Of a stretch of 64,000 nt of DNA, positions 5,429 through 61,708 are shown in pieces. The notes beneath the pieces were generated by a model. The model ran no database searches. It was not told the origin of the DNA and was given only the letters and a program-made list of their open reading frames with translations. Every line of letters begins with the position of its first letter. Within the stretch, counting starts at the first letter, position 1. The position numbers were made by a program, and so were the translations under genes. The stretch lies in assembly GCA_902799765.1 (NCBI GenBank), contig CADCBZ010000026.1, positions 1 through 64,000 of the forward strand. The letters are read 5' to 3'. This stretch comes from an uncultured Prevotellaceae bacterium. Its GTDB lineage: Bacteria; Bacteroidota; Bacteroidia; Bacteroidales; Bacteroidaceae.

Positions 5429-7918
5429 TTATACATATAAACTTGAGAAAAGGTTCTCAAGACTCACTTCGTCTTGGATAAAAACTTCACGAGGCTTGCT
5501 ACCATGAGCAGCACCGACAACACCTGCCTTTTCTAACTGGTCCATTAATCTGCCTGCCCGATTATAGCCAATTGCGAACTTTCTTTGAATTAGACTTGTA
5601 GAGCCCTCTTGGCTAAAGACAATTAGACGTGCTGCATCTTCAAACAATGGGTCTAAATGAGTCATATCAACATCATTCACATAACATTCTTCTTCATCAT
5701 AATATGGATCAGGCAATTCAAAAGAACTGGTATATCCTTCCTGGCAAGAAATAAACTCGGTGATACGTTCCACTTCTGTTGTATCCCAATCAATGCTTTT
5801 ACCCGCTCTAAACAACATATCACCATTCCCTAACAATTCTTCTGCTCCATCACAATCTAGGATGACCTGAGAATCTATCCGTTCTGGCAGTCTAAAAGCA
5901 ATACGTGTAGGGAAATTAGCCTTGATTGCTCCTGTGATAATATCGTTAGTAGGACGTTTCGTTGAAATAATCATGTGAATGCCAACTGCACGAGCATATT
6001 GAGCCAATTGAACTATTGGGGACTCGAAATCTTGTCCCCTTTCTTCAATAAAGTCACCATATTCATCAATAGCAACAACGATATAAGGTATGAATCTATG
6101 CCCAATTTCGGGATTTAACTGACGATTTACAAATTTGTTGTTATATTCTTGGACATTCCTAACACATGCCATTTTCAGCAAATCGTAACGAGCTTCCATC
6201 TCCTTGCATAAACTGTTCAGCGTACTAACTGCCTGACCACTATTAGAAGCTATAACGGGTTCGTTAGGCAACGAAGCAAGGAATTGTTTGGCAATTTGAG
6301 CGTACATGCCAAACTCTACTCCATAAGGATCCATGAGTACAAATTTTAATTCTGCTGGATGTTTCTTATAGAGTAAAGATATAATCATTGCATTTAGTGC
6401 TATTGATTTGCCCTGACCTGTTGAACCTGCAATAAGGATATGAGGTGCTTTGGTTAGGTCAAACATAAAGACCTCATTGGCAATAGTTTTGCCTATCGCA
6501 CAAGGCAGTCCCATCGTTGTTTCTTGGAATTGTTTGGTGTTCAGAATACTATCCAAAGAAACAATAGAGGGACGTATATTGGGAACTTCTATACCGATTG
6601 TCCCTTTACCTGGTATTGGTATTAGAATCTGAACATTATGCGAACACAATGCTAAAGCTAAATCATCTTCTAATCCTCTTAATTTAGAAGCATTCACACC
6701 AGGAGCAAGTATTATCTCATATAAAGTGATTCTTGGACCAACGGTGGCTTTAATAGAAGATATTTCTATGCCAAAGCTTCGCAAAGTTTCCACAATACGA
6801 TTCTTATTGGCTGCTTGTTCTTCCATATTGATGTATGATTTTCCATTAGAATCATACCTCTTCAATAAGTCAAGGGTCGGATAGTGATAGTTTTCCAAAT
6901 CCATTTTTGGGGAGTATGGATATAAAAAATCCTTTTTCCCCTCTTCCTCACTAGACTCTTCCACAAATCCTCCATTGATAGTATTTCTGTTATCGACAGT
7001 ATCCGAGGTAGTACCTGTTCCTTCTTTTGTTGTGCCATCAGTACATTTTGCAACTATATTAGTATTATAATCAATATCTTTTTCTTTTTCACCATCTTCG
7101 CCATAATTAATATCTGTTATGTTAGCACCATCTTTTTCATTAATATGAGTGGTTCTTTGATGTATAATATAGAAAAAGACGACTGCTACTATAGCAAGAA
7201 TTACAGTCAGTCCAAATATACCTATATTATTCTCTAGTACCATTGCGATGTATGCTCCATGGTCTCCTCCTGCATTAAAAACGTTCTTATAAAGAAGCGG
7301 ATTTATAAATTCAGCAAAGAATACGCTTCCCCATACCATGATTAGTATGAACGAGAAGAAACACCTCCATAGGTTCGGCATATGTATTCCGAACATCTTG
7401 AGTGATACTACTAAAAAGAATAATGGTATTAAAAATGCGGGATACCCCAAACATCTAGATATGAAGAACCAAGATGTATATGCCCCCCAACCACCACAAA
7501 TATTATGAAATTCAAGTTTGGAACTAAGAACATCTCCGGCCATCGGACTTTCAATAATACGTTGATCAATATCAGCAGTAAATAAATAGGAGATAAAACT
7601 AATCAATGTGATAATAGAAAGGAATAACAGAACCCCTCCTATAAGTTTTAGTGCATTTTTGTTAAACTTCCCTGCTTCTTCAGTAGTAGAATCTGTATAA
7701 TTTAGAAAAGAATTAGTGTTTTCTTCTTTTTGGGGGATAGAAACTTTATCACGCCTATATAATCCTGTACCAGGAAGTCCAGCATTAACATAGGTTCCTT
7801 TAGGACCAAATGTTACACTAGCTCCTTTTACACCAACATTGGCGCTTATACCACTTTTGCTGATATTAATATGAATACCGGGCAATATCTTAATTCTTTT
7901 TCTATATCTCCAACCCAT
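5429..7918 (-). CDS. DUF4236-FtsK fusion DNA translocase
   Basis: This 829-residue protein begins with a DUF4236 domain (residues 1-56, MGWRYRKRIKILPGIHINIS then KSGISANVGVKGASVTFGPK). Four membrane segments follow (about 91-113, 151-175, 184-205, 232-252), as in FtsK. The RecA-like motor has a Walker A, GSTGQGKS, preceded by HILIA, and a Walker B-like IVVAIDEYGDF. The C-terminus carries an FtsK-gamma winged helix (SLIQRKFAIGYNRAGRLMDQ). So it has a full anchor, motor and DNA-reading domain plus an extra N-terminal module. It is preceded by an XRE regulator (17-base gap) and followed by an LRR protein. It is probably an accessory translocase rather than the cell-division FtsK. The role of DUF4236 is not known. 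Confidence 0.85.
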   Translation of the reverse strand: MGWRYRKRIKILPGIHINISKSGISANVGVKGASVTFGPKGTYVNAGLPGTGLYRRDKVSIPQKEENTNSFLNYTDSTTEEAGKFNKNALKLIGGVLLFLSIITLISFISYLFTADIDQRIIESPMAGDVLSSKLEFHNICGGWGAYTSWFFISRCLGYPAFLIPLFFLVVSLKMFGIHMPNLWRCFFSFILIMVWGSVFFAEFINPLLYKNVFNAGGDHGAYIAMVLENNIGIFGLTVILAIVAVVFFYIIHQRTTHINEKDGANITDINYGEDGEKEKDIDYNTNIVAKCTDGTTKEGTGTTSDTVDNRNTINGGFVEESSEEEGKKDFLYPYSPKMDLENYHYPTLDLLKRYDSNGKSYINMEEQAANKNRIVETLRSFGIEISSIKATVGPRITLYEIILAPGVNASKLRGLEDDLALALCSHNVQILIPIPGKGTIGIEVPNIRPSIVSLDSILNTKQFQETTMGLPCAIGKTIANEVFMFDLTKAPHILIAGSTGQGKSIALNAMIISLLYKKHPAELKFVLMDPYGVEFGMYAQIAKQFLASLPNEPVIASNSGQAVSTLNSLCKEMEARYDLLKMACVRNVQEYNNKFVNRQLNPEIGHRFIPYIVVAIDEYGDFIEERGQDFESPIVQLAQYARAVGIHMIISTKRPTNDIITGAIKANFPTRIAFRLPERIDSQVILDCDGAEELLGNGDMLFRAGKSIDWDTTEVERITEFISCQEGYTSSFELPDPYYDEEECYVNDVDMTHLDPLFEDAARLIVFSQEGSTSLIQRKFAIGYNRAGRLMDQLEKAGVVGAAHGSKPREVFIQDEVSLENLFSSLYV

Positions 7919-49240: not shown

Positions 49241-51712
49241 ATGAAAAGACAATTGCTACTGTTAGTGCTTGTGCTGATGACCGTTGGTGTATGGGCACAG
49301 CAGATTTCGGAAGAGCAGGCGCGCGACCGCGCCCTGAAGTTTCTTACCAATAACGCTCCTGCCAAGACCAGAGGGCTGAATGTCGGCATAGACAGGAAGA
49401 CGGTTACGGCTAAGACGGATGCCAAGAGCATCTACGCCTTCAATCTGGATGGCGGTGGCTTTGTGATTGCCTCTGGCGACAGTCGTGCACTGCCCGTGCT
49501 GGGCTACAGCGCCACCGGCAGCATCGACTGGGACAGGATGCCAGACAACATGCGGGCATGGCTGAAGAGCTACGACCAGGCCATGGCAACACTGGGCAAC
49601 ACGAAGGAGTTTTCCGACGGCGTGAACAGACACGGACCGATGACCCGCGCCCCGCGTGAAGCCATCGGCCCGTTGCTCAAGACCCAGTGGGACCAGATGG
49701 AGCCTTACTGGAATGACACGCCTCCCTACGACGGTGCCAATCCCGACTGGAAGGGGCAGCCGTCGCAATCAGGCTGCGTGGCCACCGCGATGGCGATGGT
49801 GATGCACTACTACCAGTGGCCGAAAGATGCCTGCACGGAGATTCCTGCCTATGACCTCACCACGGCCCACGAGAATGTGGAGAAGGTGTGGCATATCGAC
49901 GCACTGCCGCCGACGACCTTCGACTGGGACAACATGCTCGACAATTATGTGACGCCAGAGGGTATTATCATCGGCACTCCCGAACAGCAGGAGGCCGTGG
50001 CCAAGTTGATGCGCTACTGTGGGCAGGGCGTCAGGATGATTTATTCCCCCGTAAGTTCATCATCCTATGAACAGTTGGCTGCGGAGGCCCTTGTCAAATA
50101 TTTCGGCTATCAGAATACGGTGCAGGTTAGCCACCGTATGTACTATAGTATCGACGGCTGGGAGGACCTGATCTACAGCGAACTGGCCAATGGCCGGCCT
50201 GTAGTGTATGGGGGTCGCCGCGATGCCGGTGGACACGCCTTCGTCTGTGACGGCTACGACGGCAACGGTCTCTTCCACATCAACTGGGGGTGGTGTGGCT
50301 ACGGTGATGCCTACTTCTCGCTCTCTGTGCTCAACCCCTATGACACCCCCGGTACGGGAGCCAGCTCCAGCGGCATCGGTTTCAGCATCAATCAGGATGC
50401 CTTCATCAGCGTACAGCCCGACAAGGACGGCACCAGTCCCAAGACGGTTAAGCCTCTCGCATTTCTCTATCCCAATAATCCTGTAAGCGTGGTAGAGCCC
50501 GACTCTGTTTTTTTCAGATACAAATTTAGTTCCAGCATTTATGGCGACGAAGAAGTCCGTGCTGATCACGCCATTGGTACCCGTGCAGATGACGGCACCC
50601 TCACCCCGGTGTTCATGGGTAATCCCGCCGACAGCATTGTCTATAATTACGAAATCAACAACCTCCACAAGGTCAAAGTCGATTCCACCGCTTTCCAGCC
50701 TGAGGAGTGGATGGCGCTCTATCCAATGGTACGTTTCCGCAACATCCCAGGCTGCGACTGGCAGATGCTCGCTTCCGAGGAATATCGTGTGATAGCGGGC
50801 CGCACAACTGGCGGGCAGTTCTATCTCATCAAGGAAATGCCCAATCTGGAGATTACCAAGGCCGAATTTACCAAGGGACCTGGCCGTATGGGTATGGGCA
50901 ACGACCTGACACTGACCATCCGCAACAAGAGCGAGCGCGAGAGTACGATGCCGCTCTATCTGGTTCCCCGCTATTTCGGTAAGGTCAAGCCGGCAGACAT
51001 TACGCAGGAGACGCCGCGCAGCGAGGGCGACCCTATGAAGGCCGGTGCCTATCTGCGGGCTGGTCAGGACACGGAGGTCACCTTCTGTTTCAAGCCGATG
51101 GCCAGCGGAACGGTCGGCTTATTGTTATCCTGGCCTGACGGTACGCCGCTGGCAGATTGCTTCATCGAGGTGAGCGACACCATCGGAAGCTATGACGACT
51201 ATCTCGTCAACCAGAGCACCTACGAGCTGTTGCCTGGGCAGATTGCCTACCACGTCAGCATCGCGGATAATCCCGAGGCTATCGTCCCTCAGGGCGTACC
51301 AGCCGACAACATCTATTTATACGTTTGCATCGCTGATGACAATTGGGAGTTTACTCAAATAGCCAGGTTACGGCAGGAGACCGTCAGCTACCTGACAGCC
51401 CTGCCCGAGAAGGCTGGCAGCGGCAATTATAAGCTGACGACGGAGCTGACGCTCGACGTCCCCCAAAGTGGCTATTACACTGTGGCGTCGTATTTCGTAA
51501 ACGAGCTGAAAGAGAATGCTACGGATGACGATGTTATCTACAGCGTAGAGCATTTCGACAGGTTCTACTTCGACTTGGAAACCGGCATTGTCAGTGTAGC
51601 GCGTGAGGATAACGACAACGGCCCCTATGTTGGTCTGAACGGCGTGGTTACAAACAGCCGTCCCCAGCGCAAGGGCATCTATATCCACAAAGGCCGCAAG
51701 GTTATCCGGTAA
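49241..51712 (+). CDS. C10 family cysteine protease (streptopain/interpain-like)
   Basis: An 823-residue secreted protease. It has a signal peptide (MKRQLLLLVLVLMTVGVWAQ), a Spi/propeptide-like inhibitory region (about 21-135, YAFNLDGGGFVIASGDSRAL) and the peptidase C10 domain. The catalytic Cys179 is in QSGCVATAMAMVMHYY and His332 in GGHAFVCDGYDGNG, followed by FHINWGWCGYGDAYFSLSVL. A long C-terminal part has beta-sandwich-like segments. Relatives in Prevotella degrade host proteins. It has no clear promoter of its own except the short gap after the ATPase gene. It is the first gene before a peptide-export locus, which may be coincidence or may mean a role in maturation. Confidence 0.9.
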   Translation: MKRQLLLLVLVLMTVGVWAQQISEEQARDRALKFLTNNAPAKTRGLNVGIDRKTVTAKTDAKSIYAFNLDGGGFVIASGDSRALPVLGYSATGSIDWDRMPDNMRAWLKSYDQAMATLGNTKEFSDGVNRHGPMTRAPREAIGPLLKTQWDQMEPYWNDTPPYDGANPDWKGQPSQSGCVATAMAMVMHYYQWPKDACTEIPAYDLTTAHENVEKVWHIDALPPTTFDWDNMLDNYVTPEGIIIGTPEQQEAVAKLMRYCGQGVRMIYSPVSSSSYEQLAAEALVKYFGYQNTVQVSHRMYYSIDGWEDLIYSELANGRPVVYGGRRDAGGHAFVCDGYDGNGLFHINWGWCGYGDAYFSLSVLNPYDTPGTGASSSGIGFSINQDAFISVQPDKDGTSPKTVKPLAFLYPNNPVSVVEPDSVFFRYKFSSSIYGDEEVRADHAIGTRADDGTLTPVFMGNPADSIVYNYEINNLHKVKVDSTAFQPEEWMALYPMVRFRNIPGCDWQMLASEEYRVIAGRTTGGQFYLIKEMPNLEITKAEFTKGPGRMGMGNDLTLTIRNKSERESTMPLYLVPRYFGKVKPADITQETPRSEGDPMKAGAYLRAGQDTEVTFCFKPMASGTVGLLLSWPDGTPLADCFIEVSDTIGSYDDYLVNQSTYELLPGQIAYHVSIADNPEAIVPQGVPADNIYLYVCIADDNWEFTQIARLRQETVSYLTALPEKAGSGNYKLTTELTLDVPQSGYYTVASYFVNELKENATDDDVIYSVEHFDRFYFDLETGIVSVAREDNDNGPYVGLNGVVTNSRPQRKGIYIHKGRKVIR

Positions 51713-51744: not shown

Positions 51745-51795
51745 AAAGGAGTGAAAAAACATCGTTTTTCATTTTTATTTCCAATTATTTTTGTA
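51745..51795 (+). repeat. shared promoter-proximal element, copy 1
   Basis: AAAGGAGTGAAAAAACA followed by a T-rich run and AATTATTTTTGTA. It matches 53564-53615 almost base for base. Both copies lie just upstream of -7-like boxes, of the AraC-type gene and the adaptor gene. Confidence 0.65.
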
Positions 51796-51811
51796 GAATT
51801 GCAGCCGTAAT

Positions 51812-52444
51812 ATGAGAAGATTTCCAAAGTTAGTTATCATATCGCTCTTAGCCGTGCCGGTGTTGACGACGGCATGCACGGGTGGCGGGAACGACGTAGA
51901 AGCCAAGACTATCGTCTATCGCATCCTTGCCTTCTCGCTCCTTGCCATCATGCTGGCTATCTTCATGGCACTCTGGAGACTGGCCTTGGCCTATCGTCGT
52001 ATGCTCATCAAGAACCGGGAGCTCTTTGAGCTGATTCACCGTAAGCAGCGGCGCGAGGTTCGCGACATCCAGCGCTTAGCCCGTCAGACCGAACAGGAGC
52101 GCACGCCCAATGAGCAGCTCTTCCTCCGTCTTGTCGAACTGATGAAGAAGCAGCAGCGCTATACCGACGCAGACCTGAACCGTGACATGCTCGCCGCGAT
52201 GCTCGGCACTAATCACCGTTATATCGACGATGCCATCCGCGAGTGCTCCGACAGCCCAAGCACCAAGGCGTTCATCGACGGCTACCGTGTGGATCATGCT
52301 GCCCGTCTGCTCACCAGCACTGACGACCCCATCGCCCTCATCGCCGAGATGAGCGGCTTTGCCAACCGCACAACCTTCAACGAACAGTTCCGCAGCCGTT
52401 ACAAGATGACACCCTCAGAGTACCGACGGGCTTCAAAATCCTAA
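51812..52444 (+). CDS. membrane-anchored AraC-type regulator
   Basis: A 210-residue protein. The N-terminus has two hydrophobic stretches (about 7-20 and 34-58, YRILAFSLLAIMLAIFMALW), then a coiled linker (60-95). A C-terminal AraC helix-turn-helix follows: LNRDMLAAMLGTNHRYIDDA, then DPIALIAEMSGFANRTTFNE and FRSRYKMTPSEYRRASKS. Short membrane AraC regulators of this type occur in Prevotella. It stands directly upstream of a direct-repeat promoter and the peptide genes, so it is the obvious candidate regulator. Confidence 0.85.
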   Translation: MRRFPKLVIISLLAVPVLTTACTGGGNDVEAKTIVYRILAFSLLAIMLAIFMALWRLALAYRRMLIKNRELFELIHRKQRREVRDIQRLARQTEQERTPNEQLFLRLVELMKKQQRYTDADLNRDMLAAMLGTNHRYIDDAIRECSDSPSTKAFIDGYRVDHAARLLTSTDDPIALIAEMSGFANRTTFNEQFRSRYKMTPSEYRRASKS

Positions 52445-52446
52445 GT

Positions 52447-52487
52447 TTTGCGGAATGCTGACAAATATTTGCGGAATGCTGACAAAT
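52447..52487 (+). promoter_or_regulatory. two direct repeats 21 bases apart, probable activator site
   Basis: TTTGCGGAATGCTGACAAAT occurs at 52447-52466 and 52468-52487, two helical turns apart. The second copy ends 17 bases before the -7 box TATCTTTG (52505-52512), where a -33 element would be but no TTTG is seen. This is the layout of an activator-dependent promoter, and an AraC-type regulator is encoded just upstream. Confidence 0.7.
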
Positions 52488-52504
52488 CTATCGGCTATTT
52501 TTTG

Positions 52505-52512
52505 TATCTTTG
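52505..52512 (+). promoter_or_regulatory. -7 box of the coiled-coil protein and peptide genes
   Basis: TATCTTTG, 29 bases upstream of the ATG at 52542. Confidence 0.65.
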
Positions 52513-52541
52513 CCCCAGAAATCAAAACAAGAACAGTAATT

Positions 52542-52817
52542 ATGGATACGACAGTTATCATTTCAATCATCATCTCGACTATTGTGGCGCTGGCCATAGT
52601 GGCATTGGTCGTTGTGCTCTTCTACTACCACTGGCGCAATCAGGAGTTGCTGGTCAACTTCTCTGCTTTCATCCGTGAGAACCTGAAACTGAAAGACGAA
52701 ATCGAGCAGCTTCAGGACGAGAACAACGTACTCAATGAAGAGTTGGAGGTGGTGACGGGCGGCCAGCGCGAGCGGCGCTCGCACCAGCGCAAGGTACAGG
52801 ATCCTACAATCAAATAA
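52542..52817 (+). CDS. small membrane protein with coiled coil
   Basis: A 91-residue protein (MDTTVIISIIISTIVALAIV) with one N-terminal membrane helix (about 4-27), a short basic stretch and a coiled coil (about 45-69, LKDEIEQLQDENNVLNEELE), then a basic tail. The start is set by the promoter at 52505. I recognise no family. It precedes the two peptide genes by 34 bases, so an immunity, anchoring or regulatory role is possible but unproven. Confidence 0.75.
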   Translation: MDTTVIISIIISTIVALAIVALVVVLFYYHWRNQELLVNFSAFIRENLKLKDEIEQLQDENNVLNEELEVVTGGQRERRSHQRKVQDPTIK

Positions 52818-52851
52818 TATAATAAGTATAACCCATTAAATATTTAGCAAT

Positions 52852-53037
52852 ATGGCAAATTTAACAGCAGAACAGATTGAGCAGAAGAAGCAGCAGCTGA
52901 AGCAGCTCTCTGAGGAGATGAATGCAATCATCAAGGAATTGCAGGAGGCCGGCGCATGGCCACTCGACGAGGACGAACTTGACCAGGTGGCTGGCGGGTT
53001 TATTCTTGGGAATTTACCCAAATTCAAAGCACTTTAG
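52852..53037 (+). CDS. double-glycine leader peptide A (secreted peptide precursor)
   Basis: A 61-residue precursor. The leader (1-49) is amphipathic and charged (MANLTAEQIEQKKQQLKQLS ... EAGAWPLDEDELDQVAGG) and ends in GG. The predicted core is FILGNLPKFKAL (12 residues, net basic). It is paralogous to peptide B. The C39 peptidase exporter encoded downstream would cut after GG. No cysteines and no adjacent modification enzyme. It could be a bacteriocin-like or signalling peptide. Confidence 0.85.
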   Translation: MANLTAEQIEQKKQQLKQLSEEMNAIIKELQEAGAWPLDEDELDQVAGGFILGNLPKFKAL

Positions 53038-53057
53038 TTTAAATTTCTTTATAAGTT

Positions 53058-53111
53058 CCTGAGCAACAAAAAGTTCTTGCTGGGGCAAGCGGCAAAGCCG
53101 AGCGGCTCAGG
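53058..53111 (+). other. predicted three-way RNA junction between the peptide genes
   Basis: An outer stem CCTGAGC (53058-53064) / GCTCAGG (53105-53111) encloses two hairpins: CTTGC-TGGG-GCAAG (53076-53089) and CGGC-AAA-GCCG (53090-53100). ATTTT follows. It could be a terminator/attenuator or a processing site that sets the ratio of peptides A and B. Confidence 0.55.
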
Positions 53112-53240
53112 ATTTTGCCATGTCAGATTTTTCACTTACCTTAGTGCTGCAAATGTTAATTTCGATGAACAATTTAAACGGGATTAACTTTCATCTTCAC
53201 CAAGAACAGAAAACGTGTATAACAGTTAAAATTTTTAATT

Positions 53241-53453
53241 ATGGCAACATTAACAGCAGAACAAATCGAGCAGAAGAAGCAGCAGTTGAAGCAACTCTCT
53301 GATGAGATGAATGCAATAGTAAAGGAACTGCAGGAGGCCGGCGCATGGCCACTCGACGAAGCCGACCTCGACAATGCCGCAGGTGGTTCGGGTCAATATC
53401 AAACTCCCAAGCCATTTCACATCTTTCCAAAAGACCAATTTGGAATGGGATGA
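53241..53453 (+). CDS. double-glycine leader peptide B (secreted peptide precursor)
   Basis: A 70-residue precursor whose leader (1-49) is nearly identical to that of peptide A (MATLTAEQIEQKKQQLKQLS ... LDEADLDNAAGG). The core (50-70, SGQYQTPKPF...QFGMG) is unrelated to core A, rich in Pro, Phe, Gln and Gly, and has no cysteines. The strong nucleotide identity over the leader shows recent duplication. It lies 217 bases upstream of the adaptor gene. Confidence 0.85.
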   Translation: MATLTAEQIEQKKQQLKQLSDEMNAIVKELQEAGAWPLDEADLDNAAGGSGQYQTPKPFHIFPKDQFGMG

Positions 53454-53472
53454 CTGCTTGAATAGATCACTG

Positions 53473-53492
53473 GGGTCAGATCCCGTGATCAC
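53473..53492. repeat. REP-like element, copy 3
   Basis: GGGTCAGATCCCGTGATCAC, within a larger imperfect hairpin (GATCAC at 53465-53470 pairs with GTGATC at 53485-53490). The rest of 53493-53560 looks like a short tail of some lost gene and is not assigned. Confidence 0.65.
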
Positions 53493-53563
53493 GGCGCCTA
53501 GCCAGAGGGCATGCAGAAAGAAGTGAGCCGTTTCTATGCAGAACTGGCTGCGTATTAACGAGC

Positions 53564-53621
53564 AAAGGAGTGAAAAAACACACGATTTTCTTTTTTATTT
53601 CTAATTATTTTTGTATTTTTG
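53564..53621 (+). promoter_or_regulatory. shared element copy 2 and -7 box of the export operon
   Basis: AAAGGAGTGAAAAAACA and the following T-rich run match 51745-51795. A TATTTTTG -7 box follows at 53614-53621, 49 bases before the adaptor gene ATG. Confidence 0.6.
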
Positions 53622-53670
53622 CCACCGAAATTAAGACTATACCATTATTGTCACTTTCAAATTTAAGATT

Positions 53671-54507
53671 ATGGCAGAGATATTCAATAAGGAGGCACTG
53701 GAGGCACTCGACGACCATAGCGAAGCCAAGGAGATGGCGCGAGTGGCATCTCCGAGGATTCGGATTGTGATTGCCGCCATGGTGGCGATGATGGTGGTGG
53801 TCATCTATTGGTGCATCTTCGGAACCATCAATTACAAGGTTACAGCGCAGGGCGTGGTATTTCCTTTTGGAGAGGCCACGCCTATTAGTTTGCCCTATGA
53901 TGGAGCCGTTAGCCGTTTGCTGGTGAGTCACGGTGCCACCGTTGCCAATGGTGTGGCAGTGATGGAGATTCGCAATGCCCTTTCGACGACAGCTGTCAGG
54001 GTGCCGCGCGACGGCGTGTTGATACAGACGCTGCCCCTTGGCGCACAGTTCAAGGCAGGCGAACCCGTGGCGTGGCTGCTACCGCAGACGCAGCAGATGG
54101 CAGGCCGCGAGATGCTCTGCTATGTGACCTACAACGATCTGCGCAAACTGAAGATCGGTCAGCAGGTGCAGGCCACGCCCGCCAATTTGGAGCGCGAGAA
54201 CTGGGGATATGCCTACGGACGGGTGGTTGGCATCGAACAGTACCCGACCACGCGACAGGAGATTGTGAGCCGTGTGAAACTCGACCCGCTGGCAGCATTC
54301 ATCAAGGACGGACAGGCGATGTACGAGGTGCGCGTAACGTTTGACGAGCAGAACGGTAATCTGGTATGGAGTCGTGAGAAGAGCCGCCATGTGAAGGTGG
54401 GCAACGGTGCCTTATGCAACATCCAGATTATCACACGGAAGAAGCCCGTCTGGCGAGTCCTTGTCGGCACACTGGACAATTCCATCCAAACGATAGCAGG
54501 CAATTAG
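53671..54507 (+). CDS. HlyD-type membrane fusion protein (NHLM export system)
   Basis: A 278-residue adaptor with one membrane helix (about 28-50, IVIAAMVAMMVVVIYWCIFG), a split biotinyl/lipoyl-like domain (about 56-140, YDGAVSRLLVSHGATVANGV) and a beta-barrel domain. It resembles the secretion protein of NHLM bacteriocin export systems more than long-hairpin HlyD proteins, because the coiled-coil hairpin is nearly absent. It is the first gene of a tight operon: 1 base to the C39 exporter, 2 bases to the next ABC gene. Confidence 0.82.
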   Translation: MAEIFNKEALEALDDHSEAKEMARVASPRIRIVIAAMVAMMVVVIYWCIFGTINYKVTAQGVVFPFGEATPISLPYDGAVSRLLVSHGATVANGVAVMEIRNALSTTAVRVPRDGVLIQTLPLGAQFKAGEPVAWLLPQTQQMAGREMLCYVTYNDLRKLKIGQQVQATPANLERENWGYAYGRVVGIEQYPTTRQEIVSRVKLDPLAAFIKDGQAMYEVRVTFDEQNGNLVWSREKSRHVKVGNGALCNIQIITRKKPVWRVLVGTLDNSIQTIAGN

Positions 54508-54508
54508 T

Positions 54509-56650
54509 ATGGGCAAGAGTAAATTGGCTAAGGTGCCGCAGGTGATGCAGATGGAGGTCGTGGAGTGCGGTGCTGCATCGTTGACGATGATCTTAGCGCA
54601 TTACGGCAAGTGGTTGCCACTGGAAGAGGTACGAGCAGCCTGTGGTGTGTCGCGCGACGGCTCATCGGCGAAGATGATTCTGCAGGCTGCCCGTAACTAC
54701 GGTCTTGATGCCAAGGGCTTCCGTATGTCGCCCGAGGCGCTGGAAGGCAAGCAGCCTGCCATCATCCACTGGAACTTCGAGCACTTCGTCGTGTTCCGGG
54801 GCTTCGACCGTAAGGGGCGCGCCTGCATCAACGATCCTGGCATAGGACCCGTGAAATGGCCGATGGAGGAGTTCCGCAAGCACTACACAGGCGTGTGCCT
54901 GACCTTTGAGCCGACGGAGAAGTTTGAGAAGGGCGGACAGCAGACCAGCATCCTTTCTTATATGAAGAAGAATCTCAACGGTGTGAGTGAGGCTTTCTGG
55001 CTCACCTTCTCCTTTGCGCTGATGGGTGCCTTCGTGGCACTACTGTCGCCGCTGTTCACCCGCATCTTCCTCGACGAGATTCTGTCGGGCAAGAATGCCG
55101 ATTGGGTTAAGTGGTTCTTCATAGGCATGGGCGCACTGGCCGTTTTCCAGTTCTTCGTGGTACTGCTGCAAAGTCGCTATACCAAGCGTGTGGCAGGTGC
55201 GCTGGCATTAAAAAGCAACAAGGACTATCTGCGCCACTTGCTGCGCCTGCCCATGTCGTATTTCGCCATGCGCCATGTGGGCGATTTGCAGCAGCGTATG
55301 CATCTGAACCAGGAGATTACCAACTCCTTGATAGAAGTTCTGGCTCCGCAGGTCATCAATATCGGTCTGTTAGTGCTCTACCTGTTTCTGATGTTCTCGT
55401 ATTCCTTCTGGCTGACAATCATAGGATTCGTGGCTGCGGGTGTCAACCTGGCTATCGTTCATTATTTCGCCAATTTGCGTATTAACCTCATCCGTTCCAT
55501 GGAACAAAGTGAGGGCCAGTACTTCTCTGCCACTATCTCATGCATTGACAACATGGAGAGCATTAAGGCGGCAGGTGCTGAGACGGGCTTCTTCAAATAC
55601 TGGAGCGGACTGTGGGCACATAAGTTCAACGTGAACGCCAACGCCGACAAGCAACAAGCGCAGATGGCTTTGTTGCCTGTGATGGCCAACGCACTTTGCT
55701 CTGTGGCCGTACTCGTGTTAGGTGCCTACCTCATTCTTCAGGGCGATCTGACTGTGGGTATGCTCATGGCCTTCCAAGGCTTCATGGGGTCGTTCCTGGC
55801 ACCTGTGAACGAGCTGGTAAACGGCTCTCAGAAAATTGTGGAGATGCGAAGTCAGATGGAGCGTGTGGAAGATGTGATGAAATATCCCGAAGACCATCGG
55901 GACTCGGAAAAGGAGATCCTTCAAGGGAAACTTGGCGGCCTTTTGGAAATGAAGCATGTCACCTTCGGTTACTCACCTATACAGCCTCCGCTCATTGAGG
56001 ACTTCAACCTCAGGGTGGAGCCTGGTCATTCTGTGGCTCTGGTAGGCCCCAGCGGTTGTGGTAAATCGACACTGGCAAAACTGATCAGCGGTCTCTATAA
56101 GCCGTGGAGTGGGGAAGTTCTTTTCGACGGCAGACCCATCGAAAGCATCCCCAATGAAGAGCTGACGAACTCTGTGGCAGTGATCGACCAGAACGTGGTG
56201 CTCTTTGATGACACCATCGCACAGAATATCCGCATGTGGGACCCCAGCATCGAGGATTTCACGCTGATGATGGCCTGCAACGATGCAGAGATACGTGCTG
56301 ACATCGTGAGTCGTCCAGAAGGCTTTGATACGAAGATTGTCAAGGGTGGACAGAATTTCAGCGGCGGTCAGCGACAGCGCTTTGAAATAGCTACTGCACT
56401 GGCCAGAGAGCCGATCGTGCTCATCATGGATGAGGCTACGAGTGCCTTAGACCCGAAGACCGAGGATGAGGTCATGAAGCGCATCCGGCGTATGGGACCG
56501 ACACAGATTATCGTGGCCCACCGACTGAGTACCATCCGTGACTGCGACGAGATTATCGTCATGGACCAGGGTAAGATCCTACAACGCGGACGACATGAGG
56601 AACTCATGGCGCAGGAAGGATTCTATCAGAAACTGATGAAGAGCGAATAA
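54509..56650 (+). CDS. C39 peptidase-ABC exporter (NHLM/PCAT type)
   Basis: A 713-residue peptidase-containing ABC transporter. The N-terminal C39 peptidase has the full triad Cys20 (VVECGAASLTMILAHYG), His92 (FEHFVVFRGFD) and Asp109 (CINDPGIGPVKW). Six membrane helices follow at about 160-430. The ATPase has Walker A VGPSGCGKSTLAKL, signature NFSGGQRQRFEIATAL, Walker B VLIMDEATSALD and AHRLSTIRDCD. It would cut leaders after GG and export the cores. The two precursors with GG sites are just upstream. Confidence 0.93.
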   Translation: MGKSKLAKVPQVMQMEVVECGAASLTMILAHYGKWLPLEEVRAACGVSRDGSSAKMILQAARNYGLDAKGFRMSPEALEGKQPAIIHWNFEHFVVFRGFDRKGRACINDPGIGPVKWPMEEFRKHYTGVCLTFEPTEKFEKGGQQTSILSYMKKNLNGVSEAFWLTFSFALMGAFVALLSPLFTRIFLDEILSGKNADWVKWFFIGMGALAVFQFFVVLLQSRYTKRVAGALALKSNKDYLRHLLRLPMSYFAMRHVGDLQQRMHLNQEITNSLIEVLAPQVINIGLLVLYLFLMFSYSFWLTIIGFVAAGVNLAIVHYFANLRINLIRSMEQSEGQYFSATISCIDNMESIKAAGAETGFFKYWSGLWAHKFNVNANADKQQAQMALLPVMANALCSVAVLVLGAYLILQGDLTVGMLMAFQGFMGSFLAPVNELVNGSQKIVEMRSQMERVEDVMKYPEDHRDSEKEILQGKLGGLLEMKHVTFGYSPIQPPLIEDFNLRVEPGHSVALVGPSGCGKSTLAKLISGLYKPWSGEVLFDGRPIESIPNEELTNSVAVIDQNVVLFDDTIAQNIRMWDPSIEDFTLMMACNDAEIRADIVSRPEGFDTKIVKGGQNFSGGQRQRFEIATALAREPIVLIMDEATSALDPKTEDEVMKRIRRMGPTQIIVAHRLSTIRDCDEIIVMDQGKILQRGRHEELMAQEGFYQKLMKSE

Positions 56651-56652
56651 CC

Positions 56653-58821
56653 ATGGAAATCTATATTAATCAGATCAATAAGCGCAGGGCAGCTGAGCAA
56701 GCAGCAATGGCCGAGGTGAACGAGAAGACCCATCAGCGTCTGGGACTTCAGGGAGGCAGGCGCGTGGTGCCTCAGAACGACCAAAGTGCGTTGCGACAGG
56801 TGCTTGAGGCACTCGGCATCACAGACTACCAGCTGGATTATGATGATGTGTTATCGGTTGAGGAACAACTGACAGGCATCCTTCGTCCGCGTGGTATCAT
56901 GATGCGCGATATTCATCTGACTGGAGAATGGTGGCGTGAGTGTGTCGGGCCACTGTTGGGCTATACCAAGGGCGGAAGACTGGTGGCGCTGACCCCGACG
57001 AAGACCGGGCTGGGCTACCAATACCGCAAAGAGGACGGTATAGTCAGGCAGGTGGGTAAACGCGAGATGACTGAAGAGCTGGAACCGACGGCCATCACTT
57101 TCACCAAAGCCTTGCCGCTAAGAGCGCTGAAGATGAAGGACCTTGTCAGGTTCACGTGGCGTGTGGTGTCAGGGCCTAATGCCGTGCTGCTCGTGGTGTG
57201 TGCCCTTGTAGTGGTGCTGCTTGGCATGTTTACCCCGATGGCCAACAAACTGATCTTCGACACGGTTATCCCTACCGGCGACGCCTCCGATCTGTTGCCT
57301 ATTACCGGGCTTCTTATCGGTATTACCATAGGCTCTCTATTGCTTACGCTGACAAGAAATCTCTATATCATCCGTTTGCAGCACATCATAGAGCTGCACG
57401 TGCAGAATGCCGTTGTGGCCCGCACGTTCCTCTTGAGTCCCACTTTCTTCAGCCATCATTCCAGTGGTGAACTGACGGCAAAGATACAGAATATAACGAC
57501 AGTGGCCTCGCTCTGCAATGAGAGCATCGTCGGAGCGTTGCTCTCAGCCGTGCTCAGTATCATCTATCTGGTGCAGGTCTATATTTATGGTGGTGCATTG
57601 CTCTGGCCTGCGCTTGGTATCATTGCCCTGCAGGTGCTCGTCATCTTTTTGTACTATCTTCGCATTGTCGGGGTTCAGAAGAAATATACTGAGGAAATGG
57701 CGAAGCTGAGCGGTCTGGAATACAATCTCTTTGCGGGTATCCACAAACTGAAACTTACTGGTAGTGAGAACCGTGCATTTATCCGTTGGCTCGACCACTA
57801 TAGCAAAGCTACCTATCTGGTCTATAATCCAGATTTCGCCCGTCTGCTTTGTCCTGCACTCACTGCCTTACTGGGGCTTGGCGGCACGATGCTCCTCTTC
57901 TGGAGCACATTGTCGAACGGGGTTTCCTCTTCCGACTATATTGCCTTCAGTTCTGCTTTTGGCATGATAACCGCCTCGATAACCCAGCTGAACACTGTGG
58001 TACCGAGTCTGGCACAGATTAAACCGCTGTTGGAGAGCGTAAGGCCTATCTTGGAAGCCGTACCTGAAATGGAAGAGAAAGCACCGCAGGTTAATGCACT
58101 CTTTGGAAGTATCGAACTGAGTGGTGTGTCGTTCCGCTATCAGGAAGACGGGCCAATGGTTATCGACGACCTGTCGCTGAAGATTAAGCCGGGCGAATAT
58201 GTGGGCATTGTGGGTAAGTCGGGCTGCGGCAAATCAACGTTGATGCGCCTGATGCTTGGATTCGAACAACCGCTGACTGGTGGTATCTCCTACGACAACT
58301 ATGACTTGGCGAAGGTGGATAAGGCTTCGCTGCGCAGGAAGATCGGCTGTTGTCTGCAGAGCGGCAGCTTGTTTACGGGCGACCTGTTCCACAACATCAC
58401 CATCACCGCTCCGTGGGCCACCCATGACGATGCGTGGGAGGCCCTGCGCATGGCTTGTCTTGAAGAAGATGTCAGAAAGATGCCGATGGGGCTTCACACC
58501 ATCGTCACAGAAGGTGGCGGTGGCTTCAGTGGCGGACAGAAGCAGCGCATCCTCATCGCTCGTGCCCTCATCTCGAAGCCTAACATCATCTTTTTCGACG
58601 AGGCGACATCGGCACTCGACAATATCTCGCAGAAGGCCGTCAGCGACAACCTCGACCAGCTGAATTGTACCCGCGTGGTGATAGCCCACCGGTTATCGAC
58701 CATCCGCCACTGCGACCGAATCATTGTCCTCGACAAAGGCAAGATAGCTGAGGAGGGTACGTTTGAGGAACTGATGGAGAAAAAAGAACTATTCTTCGAG
58801 ATGGCACAGAGACAGTTGTAA
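56653..58821 (+). CDS. second NHLM-type ABC transporter protein
   Basis: A 722-residue protein with an N-terminal soluble domain (1-150) that lacks C39 catalytic residues, a six-helix membrane domain (about 175-440) and an ATPase domain. The latter has VGKSGCGKSTLMRLML, GFSGGQKQRILIARAL, FFDEATSALD and AHRLSTIRHCD. NHLM loci typically encode such a peptidase-less partner next to the C39 exporter, so the two probably form a heterodimer. The N-terminal part is shorter than the family length I remember. Confidence 0.88.
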   Translation: MEIYINQINKRRAAEQAAMAEVNEKTHQRLGLQGGRRVVPQNDQSALRQVLEALGITDYQLDYDDVLSVEEQLTGILRPRGIMMRDIHLTGEWWRECVGPLLGYTKGGRLVALTPTKTGLGYQYRKEDGIVRQVGKREMTEELEPTAITFTKALPLRALKMKDLVRFTWRVVSGPNAVLLVVCALVVVLLGMFTPMANKLIFDTVIPTGDASDLLPITGLLIGITIGSLLLTLTRNLYIIRLQHIIELHVQNAVVARTFLLSPTFFSHHSSGELTAKIQNITTVASLCNESIVGALLSAVLSIIYLVQVYIYGGALLWPALGIIALQVLVIFLYYLRIVGVQKKYTEEMAKLSGLEYNLFAGIHKLKLTGSENRAFIRWLDHYSKATYLVYNPDFARLLCPALTALLGLGGTMLLFWSTLSNGVSSSDYIAFSSAFGMITASITQLNTVVPSLAQIKPLLESVRPILEAVPEMEEKAPQVNALFGSIELSGVSFRYQEDGPMVIDDLSLKIKPGEYVGIVGKSGCGKSTLMRLMLGFEQPLTGGISYDNYDLAKVDKASLRRKIGCCLQSGSLFTGDLFHNITITAPWATHDDAWEALRMACLEEDVRKMPMGLHTIVTEGGGGFSGGQKQRILIARALISKPNIIFFDEATSALDNISQKAVSDNLDQLNCTRVVIAHRLSTIRHCDRIIVLDKGKIAEEGTFEELMEKKELFFEMAQRQL

Positions 58822-58831
58822 AAATGAAATA

Positions 58832-59707
58832 ATGCAAGATATGAGAAAGATGATCATGATCATAGCTGCTGTTGCAATGCTGACGGCCTGTGGCAGCGGA
58901 CAGACGGGACAGGTGAACCCAGAAGCAGATACCACTGCGACCGTTCCGGTGGAGAAGCTGGCGTTGCCGCTGCCAGAGCCTGGGGTGGTGCAGACCGTGG
59001 GTAAGGTGGTGGCAGAGCGTTATGCCGACCTGGCATTTGAGACGGCACTGCCCATCGAACAGGTGCTCGTCAGGAACGGTCAGAAAGTTCGTAAGGGACA
59101 GGTATTGGCTACGCTCGACCAGTTTAAGCTCCGTAATGACATGACCCAGAAGGAGCGGGCCGTAGAACAGGCGCAGCTCCGGATCGAACAGGCTCACCTG
59201 CAGATGCAGGATGTGATCATCGCCCATGGCTACGATCCCGATAAGGCCGCTCAGATTCCATCGAACGTGACTCGCAACTCAGATTTGAAGTCGGGTTATA
59301 CCTTGTCGAAGAGTCAGCTGGCCACCGCCAAGACCCAGTTAGAGGCAGCCCGTCATGACTTGCAGAGTGGGGTACTGACAGCTCCCTTCGACGGGGTGGT
59401 GGCAAACCTGTCGGTACAGGCCCACCAGCTCGCTGTGGCAGGTAAGACCGTCTGCCGTGTGATTGCCACGGGCGACATGCTGGTGGAGTTCCGAGTGATG
59501 GAGGCCGACCTCCAGAAATATAAGGTTGGCACAAGGGTTCACATCATTCCCGTAGCCGACAAGTCGCAACAATATGAGGCCACCGTCAGTGAGATCAATC
59601 CTATCGTCGATCAGCAGGGTGCCGTCAGCCTCCGTGCCCGTCTGGCCAAGACCGCCGAACTCTTCGATGGCATGAACGTAGAAGTCGTCTTAATGTCTGA
59701 AAAATGA
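58832..59707 (+). CDS. RND-type periplasmic adaptor lipoprotein
   Basis: A 291-residue adaptor with a lipoprotein signal (Cys20, MLTACGSG). It has a lipoyl half (LPIEQVLVRNGQKVRKGQVL), a helical hairpin (about 95-165), the second lipoyl half (GVLTAPFDGVVANLSVQAHQ) and a beta-barrel. The start may be 3 codons later (58841). In this operon it can link the inner-membrane exporter to the TolC-like channel. Confidence 0.88.
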   Translation: MQDMRKMIMIIAAVAMLTACGSGQTGQVNPEADTTATVPVEKLALPLPEPGVVQTVGKVVAERYADLAFETALPIEQVLVRNGQKVRKGQVLATLDQFKLRNDMTQKERAVEQAQLRIEQAHLQMQDVIIAHGYDPDKAAQIPSNVTRNSDLKSGYTLSKSQLATAKTQLEAARHDLQSGVLTAPFDGVVANLSVQAHQLAVAGKTVCRVIATGDMLVEFRVMEADLQKYKVGTRVHIIPVADKSQQYEATVSEINPIVDQQGAVSLRARLAKTAELFDGMNVEVVLMSEK

Positions 59708-61179
59708 AGTTTATGAAAAAGAGTCTGCTGATATTTCTTGTATGTCACCTCTCACTTCTCACTGCTTCTGCCCAGCAGAAGGTGGTGCTCGACCTCGACC
59801 GGACGGTGAGGCTCGCCACCGACAGCTCACTCTCCGTACAGAAATACCAGAATGTGTTTTATGCCTCGCAGTATCGCTATCTCTCATGGATGGCCTCTCG
59901 CAAGCCGCAGCTCTTACTGGAATCGACCCCTGTGAAGTATGAGCGCTACATGACCCAGCGCTATCTCTCTTATGAGGATATCGATGAGTATCGCCAACAG
60001 CGGTTGTTATATTCGCAGGCCGGTATCAATGCCACCCAGACGATGGAACCCTGGGGCGGACAGTTCTATGGCACCACGCAACTGGGCTTTACGCGTACGT
60101 TTGGCGACCAGAACCAGAATCAGTTCATGACCATCCCTATCTCCGTCGGTTATAAGCAGGATCTGCTGTTCTATAACCCCTTGAAGTGGGCTCGACGGAT
60201 AGAACCGCTGAAAATGGCGCGCGCAGAGAAGGAACTGCTGTATGGCATCGAGAGCACCAGCGAGAAGGCCGTAGAGAAGTTCTTCGCCCTCGCCTTGGCA
60301 CAGGATATGGTGCAGATGGCGATGGAGTCGCTCGCATCAAGCGACACCATCTATGCCATCGCCCAGCGCCGCTATAAGATTTCAAGTATCTCCAAGGCTG
60401 AGCTGAGCATCCTGGAACTCGAAAAGACCAACGCCACCACGGCACTCGCCAATGCCCGCATCGCCCGCAAGCGGGCCGTACAGGATCTTGCGACTTATCT
60501 TGGGATGGATCGGCGTACGGAGATCGAACTCGTCATCCCCTCTGTGGTGGGCACGTTGCATATCGAGGCTGACGAAGCCCTCGCCTTTGCCCGTGAGAAT
60601 AATCCTAAGTATCTGGAAACCCGTCAGGCGACCATCGAGGCCCGTCGGGAGGCAGAGCGTACGAAGGTGGAGAAGAACCTCAGCGTGAGTCTCGATGCAA
60701 GCATCGGTCTGAACCAGGTGGCTGAACGCTTTGCGGATGCCTATCGTAATCCGCTCACTCAGGATATGGCTACCGTGAAACTCACGATCCCAATCATGGA
60801 CTGGGGCAAACGGAAAAACACCTACCTCGCCGCCCGTAGCACGGTGGATGCGGCAGAGCGTACAGAACAGGAAGTGGCCCGTGATACCGAGCTTGATGTA
60901 ACGATGACCGTCAACGAGTTCAATGAGCGTCAGGCTATCGTTGAGACGGCCAGCAAGGCACTCTCCATCGCTGAGGATGCCTACGCCCAGACGCTACAGC
61001 GGTTTATCAGGGCTCAGGCTGATGCTTACAGTCTCTCGGTGGCGCAGAGCCACTGGCAGACGGCCCGTCAGAACCAGATCAACTCGCTGAAGAACTACTG
61101 GCTCGCCTATTACCACCTGCGCCGCCTGACTCTTTACGATTATCAGCGTCGCCAGACTATATCCCATAATAAGCAATAA
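59704..61179 (+). CDS. TolC-family outer membrane channel
   Basis: A 491-residue protein with a signal peptide (about 1-23, ending TASAQ), two outer membrane efflux repeats (helical, with SISKAELSILELEKTNATTA and TVKLTIPIMDWGKRKNTYLA) and an IVETASKALSIAEDAYAQTL helix. The start overlaps the adaptor stop (ATGA). It completes the route from cytoplasm to outside. Its signal peptide is encoded by a CACTTCTCACT-type repeat, as in the DUF4831 gene. Confidence 0.9.
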   Translation: MKFMKKSLLIFLVCHLSLLTASAQQKVVLDLDRTVRLATDSSLSVQKYQNVFYASQYRYLSWMASRKPQLLLESTPVKYERYMTQRYLSYEDIDEYRQQRLLYSQAGINATQTMEPWGGQFYGTTQLGFTRTFGDQNQNQFMTIPISVGYKQDLLFYNPLKWARRIEPLKMARAEKELLYGIESTSEKAVEKFFALALAQDMVQMAMESLASSDTIYAIAQRRYKISSISKAELSILELEKTNATTALANARIARKRAVQDLATYLGMDRRTEIELVIPSVVGTLHIEADEALAFARENNPKYLETRQATIEARREAERTKVEKNLSVSLDASIGLNQVAERFADAYRNPLTQDMATVKLTIPIMDWGKRKNTYLAARSTVDAAERTEQEVARDTELDVTMTVNEFNERQAIVETASKALSIAEDAYAQTLQRFIRAQADAYSLSVAQSHWQTARQNQINSLKNYWLAYYHLRRLTLYDYQRRQTISHNKQ

Positions 61180-61330
61180 AAAGGTTACCTTGTCAAATGG
61201 CTGAAGTCTTCGGACCTGATGGTCGCCACGACAGGCTTGGTGTTTTGCGACAGATTTTGAAGGTATTGGCCTGATTTGTCGCCTCTGGGGCGATTGTCGC
61301 AACAAGTGAGAGAAAAAATCGGGAAATATC

Positions 61331-61361
61331 TTGGAAATTAAAATAAATCTCCGTAACTTTA
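61331..61361 (+). promoter_or_regulatory. promoter of the third peptide gene
   Basis: TTGG (61331-61334), 19 bases, TAACTTTA (61354-61361). The expected transcription start is close to 61367, where the tandem repeat begins. The interval 61180-61330 holds no gene I can support. Confidence 0.6.
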
Positions 61362-61366
61362 CATCG

Positions 61367-61522
61367 TCAAAACCTCGATTAAGCGAGTAAAGAGCCGAAT
61401 GCAATTCGAGCTATTTCGAGCGAAAGAGGTTAAGAGCAAAGCTCAAAACCTCGATTAAGCGAGTAAAGAGCCGAATGCAATTCGAGCTATTTCGAGCGAA
61501 AGAGGTTAAGAGCAAAGCTCAA
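61367..61522 (+). repeat. 76-bp perfect tandem duplication in the peptide C leader
   Basis: Unit 61367-61442 is repeated exactly at 61443-61518, and four more matching bases follow. Each unit can fold: AACCTC/GAGGTT as outer stem (61371-61376 with 61426-61431), CGAAT-GCA-ATTCG (61396-61408) and GAGC-AAA-GCTC (61434-61444). It forms most of the 5' untranslated region. The unit length is not a multiple of three, so it is not likely to be coding. Confidence 0.85.
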
Positions 61523-61591
61523 TCAGAACAAACAACATTTGAGCGACAAGAGAATAAAACAGTAAGTTTAACAATTAAAAATTCTAAGATT

Positions 61592-61708
61592 ATGGTAAAG
61601 AAGAATGAAAAAGAGAGTCCACGCGCTCTGAACGAGGAAGAGTTGGAGTCTGTAAACGGCGGCGGCGGTGGTGGTGGCAACCGTAAAAGAAAAAAGAAAG
61701 AAAGCTAA
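61592..61708 (+). CDS. double-glycine leader peptide C with Gly7/basic core
   Basis: A 38-residue precursor: MVKKNEKESPRALNEEELES then VNGG, followed by five more glycines and NRKRKKKES. The leader resembles the short GG-type natural-product leaders of Bacteroidales (acidic LNEEELESVNGG). The core is strongly basic. The cut site is ambiguous because of seven glycines in a row. The start at 61592 is chosen because the longer frame runs through the non-coding tandem repeat. It lies 412 bases after the TolC-like gene with its own promoter. Confidence 0.75.
   Translation: MVKKNEKESPRALNEEELESVNGGGGGGGNRKRKKKES

Follow-up and report, generated by a model that had tools for sequence, protein, structure and literature searches.

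What does a bacterium send out through a peptide exporter of the NHLM type that stands without the leaders and tailoring enzymes known from such systems? This question is raised by a locus in the window, that is, the whole 64,000-nucleotide stretch of DNA that was analysed (contig CADCBZ010000026.1 of assembly GCA_902799765.1, from an uncultured Prevotellaceae bacterium). The exporter genes span positions 53671-61179 and are flanked by four double-glycine (GG) precursors (Table 1). The source Prevotella, which belongs to the same genus as P. ruminicola KHT3, probably came from a rumen. Prevotella are abundant in rumens, and to our knowledge peptide signalling in Bacteroidota has hardly been explored. 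The reading developed here, to which we give an even chance as a whole, is that the locus is an NHLM-type exporter for a dispersed repertoire of unmodified peptides whose cores are short, diversifying signals.

All the reading frames named in a preliminary description of this locus are present, and the two-membrane NHLM-type exporter with GG precursors that it proposed stands up to closer analysis. In a family scan, ABC1 scores above the TIGR03796 cut-off (886.9 against 853.3 bits). Its C39 peptidase domain (PF03412, 1.9e-31) has C20, H92 and D109 intact where they had been placed, as well as Q14, and the whole protein can be aligned to PCAT1 (4ry2) and ComA (8hf7), two exporters of solved structure. 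The Walker A, Walker B and signature motifs are intact in both ABC1 and ABC2, the latter falling narrowly under the cut-off of TIGR03797, by far its best family (697.4 against 709.4 bits). The HlyD-type adaptor is also under its cut-off (TIGR03794, 106 against 156.2 bits). Residues 28-98 correspond to positions 2-72 of the related TIGR01843, and residues 106-265 to positions 253-416 of TIGR03794; because the matches end and resume at these points, about 180 model positions have no counterpart in the protein. An AlphaFold model (13 sequences, mean pLDDT 71.6) consists of an N-terminal helix and beta domains with no long alpha-hairpin, and its best match in the PDB is BesA (E 6e-10, TM-score 0.37), which we take to be an adaptor without a hairpin. 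As modelled, HlyD thus apparently lacks the alpha-hairpin. The second adaptor exceeds the cut-offs of TIGR01730 and Pfam HlyD_3, and the channel that of Pfam OEP. We infer that it is probably this RND-type adaptor that supplies the hairpin contacting the TolC-like channel, and the two adaptors seem to share the work between them. During export, ABC1 and ABC2 would probably act as a heterodimer, binding leaders that are either helical or minimal, and the C39 peptidase would cut after the GG motif to release a short core. The core would then pass from the hairpin-less HlyD to the second adaptor, through the TolC-like channel, and to the outside.

The adjacent C39-ABC, second ABC and HlyD genes, together with the ABC1 score, are what the locus shares with NHLM/NHLP systems. 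It differs from them in having its own membrane-fusion protein (MFP) and TolC genes and dispersed precursors, in the scores of HlyD and ABC2, and in that neither a Nif11/nitrile-hydratase-type leader nor a tailoring enzyme was found at the locus. That such a leader is missing had been noted from the start, and indeed no NCBIfam model for it matches the three peptides or the coiled-coil protein at E<=1. No modification enzyme was found among the 18 frames scanned between 42384 and 63861, and none of the locus's ten frames matched a thiol oxidoreductase.

The precursors were scored with a long-leader profile (A4) and a minimal-leader profile (A6), both seeded from exporter-bearing genomes, and pepA, pepB and pepC are themselves rows of the profiles that score them. 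Their leaders nevertheless have independent support, since non-seed genomes score equally well (G683, E 3.5e-30 with the long-leader profile; G530, E 3.4e-12 with the minimal-leader profile) and exporter-free genomes score nothing. At E<=0.1, A6 is positive in all 10 chosen exporter-bearing genomes, six of which are its seed genomes, and in none of 10 exporter-free controls. Tiny precursors are often only about 33-50 amino acids (aa) long, and with profiles seeded in this way one could suppose that the short frames arose by chance or from faulty annotation beside an ordinary exporter; given the non-seed scores and the clean controls, as well as the purifying selection on leaders and the identical core in two leader contexts described below, the probability of this is virtually negligible. 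The start of pepC is most likely ATG 61592, giving 38 aa: in the longer frame of 77 aa, the first 117 bases fall in and after a 76-bp repeat that is also found ahead of two other tiny precursors. Homologous cores of pepB are found in KHT3 and in a second genome of the genus (G584), and cores similar to that of pepC in KHT3 and G570. None of the four window cores contains a cysteine.

The preliminary description counted three GG precursors and listed a small coiled-coil membrane protein separately. This count has to be corrected, as the latter protein is in all likelihood, to judge by its sequence, a fourth precursor anchored in the membrane. It most likely starts at ATG 52542 (91 aa), and its C-terminus reads ELEVVTGG followed by the 17 residues QRERRSHQRKVQDPTIK. 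The same core is found in locus L020, and 16 of the 17 residues are identical in L022, in both cases behind a membrane-anchored leader; in the homologues from L024 and L026, the GG site is followed by other short tails. KHT3 (G563) has an identical core whose leader is of the ordinary soluble kind (L083:6965-7165). At the DNA level, the window and KHT3 are homologous from 52737 onwards, where the ELEVVTGG codons lie, across core and spacer and on into the following precursor. The simplest reading of these sequences is that leaders are naturally exchanged at the leader/core junction. One class of precursors would be tethered to the inner membrane via a transmembrane/coiled-coil leader, and such tethering, along with natural leader/core exchange, suggests how cores may move between leaders.

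Precursors are not confined to the exporter locus, and the window locus very probably exports a dispersed GG repertoire. The window genome holds at least 10 precursor genes, four at the locus and at least six elsewhere: A6 finds two on contig C17, both preceded by the same 76-bp repeat as pepC, and four on contig C112. KHT3 has eight long-leader precursors, 23 tiny-leader ones and one of the membrane type, about 30 in all, with predicted cores that include IPLFDIIKRDGE, QRERRSHQRKVQDPTIK and GKAGKVSKKVIK. Its single exporter of the close type, on NZ_FRBD01000004.1, is on a different contig from most of them, and there is one further HlyD-like match, a distant one. Long-leader genes occupy unlinked places in several genomes. 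Contigs break inside precursor genes (end of G570:C4, start of G570:C17, start of G584:C13, end of C44); near-identical leaders thus probably fragment assemblies, so precursor counts are lower bounds. On contig C46 of G584 there is an array of 14 tiny GG precursors (L161:362-6911). It also holds two lipoprotein frames that begin with a precursor leader (MAEDLNK...), as if recombination had fused leaders to lipoproteins.

The link between exporter and repertoire was followed in 398 genomes of the genus, a sample in which many assemblies are incomplete, with the exporter defined as a HlyD match at E<=1e-20. Tiny leaders are found in 21 of the 59 genomes that have an exporter-type HlyD, as against 5 of the other 339 (P 4.5e-15); once the six seed genomes are dropped, the counts are 15/53 and 5/339 (P 1.3e-10). 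A4 matches 10 of the 398 genomes, one of them weakly (G535, E 9.9e-4) and left out of later counts. Of the seven genomes whose HlyD is of the closest type, six have long leaders, as do 3 of the other 391; without seed genomes, the figures are 3/4 and 3/391 (P 7.8e-6).

Conserved synteny of exporter and leaders was also borne out. A HlyD alignment scan of an 84,980-species collection, which uses two short peptide patterns only and is not a census, returned 21 loci titled Prevotella, Prevotellaceae, Bacteroidaceae or Bacteroidales. Rumen or omasum appears in all seven titles naming an organ, and one locus is that of the isolate KHT3. A GG precursor stands at the exporter locus in 19 of these 21, so that peptide genes are not missing from otherwise conserved loci. 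Among those with a long HlyD (L020-L033), 12 of 14 have at least one; L028 is cut at a contig end, and L033 has none. Since flanking genes differ among most long-HlyD loci, the exporter sits at different chromosomal places. In each of the seven loci with a shortened HlyD (L034-L040), a single tiny GG frame immediately follows ABC2, with no adjoining MFP or TolC gene. Their HlyD has no lipoyl region, and upstream lie genes of the STAS and aldo/keto reductase types (by Pfam in L034 only). Exporter stretches from genomes of the genus show a GG precursor in 14 of 19. None was recognised beside the distant exporters L127, L129, L132, L135 and L136, some of these stretches being cut short; their leaders may be too different or lie elsewhere, or the contig may be cut. 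In L125 (1741-1914) and L131 (9795-9962), precursors with two successive GG motifs (in L125, ...NEANGG...DELDSVCGG) adjoin a compact AraC protein and lie downstream of TolC. Within the taxonomic family, TIGR03796 is reached at E<=1e-180 in 6 of 301 genomes, three of which (G012, G113, G197) carry a more distant ABC1 (46-57% identity). Wide spread in the order was considered and dropped, with the HlyD profile at E<=1e-40 matching one of 344 genomes, the window's own; this draw spans 194 genera and so includes few genomes of the window's genus. Plasmid carriage was likewise dropped after a HlyD tblastn gave zero matches in 72,556 plasmid records.

The core changes much faster than the leader. 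In 47 long-leader precursors, median pairwise identity is 61% for leaders against 14% for cores. The ratio of nonsynonymous to synonymous rates (dN/dS), pooled over 12 families picked by hand for similar cores, is 1.77 in cores, with a 95% range of 1.0-4.2 in a bootstrap over families and 2.6% of the resamples under 1, against 0.41 in leaders (0.29-0.52). For the 37 pairs with leaders at least 70% identical, the values are 2.27 and 0.41, and an unweighted first pass gave 2.05 and 0.44. These comparisons point to diversifying selection on the secreted part overall. Related cores nevertheless recur across genomes, such as GEFTxYDxSxRPR in G584, KHT3 and G559, or GKAGKVSKKVIK in the window's own genome and KHT3. 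The precursors of the distant exporters L134 (9443-9556), L137 (8923-9042) and L138 (6691-6813) share a core pattern, AQxxxxPxW, unlike the variable cores elsewhere. Over 115 cores, the median length is 15 aa and the median hydropathy (GRAVY) -0.67; cysteine is present in 15, and two or more cysteines in only two.

Diversification of this kind also fits small unmodified bacteriocins or microcins caught in an arms race, with the exporter serving as in colicin V or bacteroidetocin systems. A GG leader and a C39 exporter are the classic layout for these, cassette arrays and dispersed copies look like an arsenal, and pepA alone passes the generic bacteriocin signal TIGR01847 (16.2 against 15.7). 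Membership of the leaders in a characterised bacteriocin family, which would have counted against the preliminary description, was not seen: no specific family cut-off is reached, pepC staying under both Pfam ComC (17.4 against 20.4) and a class IIb bacteriocin model (16.4 against 21.5). Among 40 proteins from related loci compared with Pfam, we recognised none of an immunity-type family, many neighbours being without any match and no systematic immunity search having been made. In the excerpts available, to which our comparisons with published systems are limited throughout, bacteroidetocins resemble the window's system in being GG peptides of Bacteroidetes, Prevotella among them, with an ABC transporter of the C39 type (PMC6671954). 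They differ in being toxins with at least two cysteines and a 15-16-aa leader, accompanied by genes for a transmembrane protein and usually a thiol oxidoreductase, quite unlike the short, hydrophilic and mostly cysteine-free cores described here. We therefore hold the bacteriocin explanation to be unlikely.

A structural role may be considered too, in which the peptides would be secreted matrix, adhesion or surface-ligand peptides. The precedent is EbfG1-4/PteB of Synechococcus elongatus, where several small GG proteins depend on one C39 transporter for efficient secretion and are required for biofilm, a role that was tested there, showing that GG peptides can serve this purpose; the text available mentions no adjoining regulators or proteases (PMC4997328). 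Genes for secreted proteins or lipoproteins are enriched beside precursors (24/41 against 68/184, P 0.009), as counted with a home-made signal-peptide rule. Cores so short and so quick to change speak for the recognition of specific sequences more than for a bulk structural role, which leaves the matrix explanation a small chance. That the exported cores act as extracellular signals, the step on which our own reading turns, appears to us a plausible proposal somewhat short of an even chance.

Whether the cores are modified is a separate issue. The preliminary description saw no tailoring enzyme, which is right for the locus (the 18 frames scanned) and for its leader subtype, and does not extend to the family, in which close exporters adjoin glycosyltransferases. 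In two records (L014/L031 and L016/L030), HlyD, ABC1 and ABC2 are 81-86% identical to those of the window, and precursors of the same leader family stand among glycosyltransferases of family 8 (GT8), in one case along with GT2 and a UDP-galactopyranose mutase. GT8 also adjoins precursors in L027 (a fragment), L029, L074, L081 and L082. With such close relatives, the peptides could be glycosylated in the manner of ribosomally synthesised and post-translationally modified peptides, the enzyme acting here in trans or having been lost. Leaders of the window type (WP motif) adjoin GT8 in 0 of 28 cases, against 8 of 19 for other subtypes (P 0.00024, with adjacency labelled by hand). A linked glycosyltransferase was looked for in the window's own genome and rejected, its single GT8 being on another contig. 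The subtype split and this unlinked gene make glycosylation here very unlikely; thus bare peptides are expected at the window locus, where the cores are probably unmodified, and sugar-bearing ones are possible in some relatives.

If the cores are signals, something must mature and read them, and the neighbours of precursors offer candidates: AraC regulators with tetratricopeptide repeats (TPR) and a transmembrane segment, TPR-transmembrane-SpoIIE phosphatases with RsbW/STAS partners, C11, C10, M13 and M6 peptidases, and lipoproteins. Tests of proximity used rounded genome sizes and a list of precursor positions that we compiled ourselves. Of 25 C11 peptidase genes in nine genomes, 7 are no more than 5 kb from a precursor, where 0.5 would be expected (P 3.7e-7); counted by locus, the figure is 5 of 23 (P 8e-5). 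TPR/transmembrane-AraC proteins are as close in 8 of 17 cases (0.34 expected), a partly circular figure as 7 of the 17 are profile seeds. TPR proteins without an AraC part show no association with precursors (2/43, 1.0 expected). TPR-type sensor regulators adjoin the exporter or precursors in relatives; the window protein corresponds to the transmembrane-AraC part only, with a signal or transmembrane segment, a coiled region and a helix-turn-helix (HTH), and matches only positions 388-565 of the 566-position TPR-transmembrane-AraC profile. For the TPR-AraC protein of KHT3, AlphaFold gave a poor model (pLDDT 52.4, from an alignment of two sequences); in the PDB it matches TPR superhelices, which weakly supports a helical-repeat part. 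Secreted proteases (C10, C11, M13) beside some precursors could possibly trim the cores, and membrane-bound AraC regulators could possibly read them.

Several observations weigh against the reading of a shared exporter for diversifying signals. As many as 38 of the 59 exporter-positive genomes, many with a distant-type HlyD, have no tiny-leader match, and six genomes have precursors and no detected exporter; incompleteness or other leaders may explain the genomes with only one of the two. The membrane coiled-coil relatives in L027, L032 and L077 have no canonical GG, so that the transmembrane/coiled-coil part may serve some function by itself. Among the 12 families, three have a core dN/dS below 1 (QRERR, GWRPP, YWDKV) and two leader families (RPKG, LFSSLF) are without any synonymous change; cassette exchange can distort dN/dS, and core diversification is also compatible with toxins. 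The C11 family was picked for the test after its proximity had been noticed. Without seeds, the TPR/transmembrane-AraC count is only 2/10 (P 0.016), one of the two being the window's own gene, and the window AraC protein has no TPR part that would bind a peptide.

Taken furthest, the signalling reading becomes a genome-wide peptide communication network in rumen Prevotella, with one two-membrane exporter, some ten to thirty dispersed, diversifying and unmodified peptides (some of them released from precursors tethered to the membrane), leaders and cores as exchangeable cassettes, maturing proteases and TPR-AraC readers; we advance this extension tentatively and regard it as somewhat doubtful. 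If true, it would be the equivalent, in Gram-negative bacteria, of the pheromone systems known from Gram-positive ones, and in some relatives it would have glycosylated branches. Comparable Gram-positive systems are the RNPP pheromones such as PlcR-PapR-NprB, in which a short peptide is likewise combined with a sensor regulator of the TPR type and with a secreted protease for its maturation, NprB taking part in the maturation of PapR (PMC4147580). They differ by their cytoplasmic Gram-positive sensors, peptide re-import and probable Sec export, whereas the window family has membrane-anchored AraC proteins and a C39 exporter; for the sensing step the likeness is one of analogy only. The Bacteroidales PCAT/GG clusters (PMC10352776) likewise have a PCAT with GG precursors, in some cases an MFP and an outer-membrane protein, and TPR genes in 2 of 9. 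Eight of the nine carry a radical S-adenosylmethionine enzyme and the ninth a LanM, and the excerpts describe neither a dispersed repertoire nor a membrane-anchored precursor. In the available part of a survey of rumen isolates, most clusters are in Bacillota (PMC13289728). We found no account of a dispersed repertoire or of membrane-tethered precursors in the open-licence literature, and judging from that literature we call the system a previously undescribed form of PCAT peptide export. Its function is directly testable: knocking out a single target, ABC1, in cultured KHT3 should switch off the whole predicted secreted peptidome.

Table 1. Features of the window's peptide export locus and its immediate surroundings.
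Feature	Position	Strand	Evidence
C10 (streptopain-type) cysteine peptidase with Spi prodomain	49241..51712	+	Pfam PF01640 3.9e-58, PF13734 5e-24
Promoter-like 58-bp region (putative)	51754..51811	+	repeat search
Compact membrane-anchored AraC-type regulator	51812..52444	+	HTH_18 2.1e-17
Probable fourth precursor: transmembrane helix, coiled coil, ELEVVTGG, core QRERRSHQRKVQDPTIK	52542..52817	+	homologues, KHT3 core
Precursor pepA, leader 49 aa, core FILGNLPKFKAL	52852..53037	+	leader profile E 5.6e-29
Precursor pepB, pepA-like leader, core SGQYQTPKPFHIFPKDQFGMG	53241..53453	+	leader profile E 3.8e-28
HlyD-type adaptor, N-terminal transmembrane helix, 278 aa	53671..54507	+	TIGR03794 106 bits, under cut-off
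ABC1: C39 peptidase, transmembrane domain and ATPase (PCAT)	54509..56650	+	TIGR03796 886.9 bits
ABC2: second NHLM-type ABC half-transporter, without peptidase	56653..58821	+	TIGR03797 697.4 bits
RND-type adaptor lipoprotein	58832..59707	+	TIGR01730 110.1 bits, above 94.9
TolC-like outer-membrane channel	59704..61179	+	Pfam OEP 3.3e-23
Two perfect tandem 76-bp copies	61367..61518	+	repeat search
Precursor pepC, minimal leader MVKKNEKESPRALNEEELESVNGG, core GGGGGNRKRKKKES	61592..61708	+	tiny-leader profile E 1.7e-9

The C10 peptidase gene, which lies outside the limits first drawn for the locus, probably belongs with the peptide genes. Its KHT3 copy is 88% identical and stands directly upstream of a related peptide array, on a contig without the exporter. 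In the repeat search, the 58-bp region ahead of the AraC gene recurs (78%) at 53574-53631, upstream of hlyD. Far from the locus, on the minus strand of the window (5429-7918), an FtsK frame carries an N-terminal DUF4236 domain; this may represent either a fusion or a frame that has been extended upstream.

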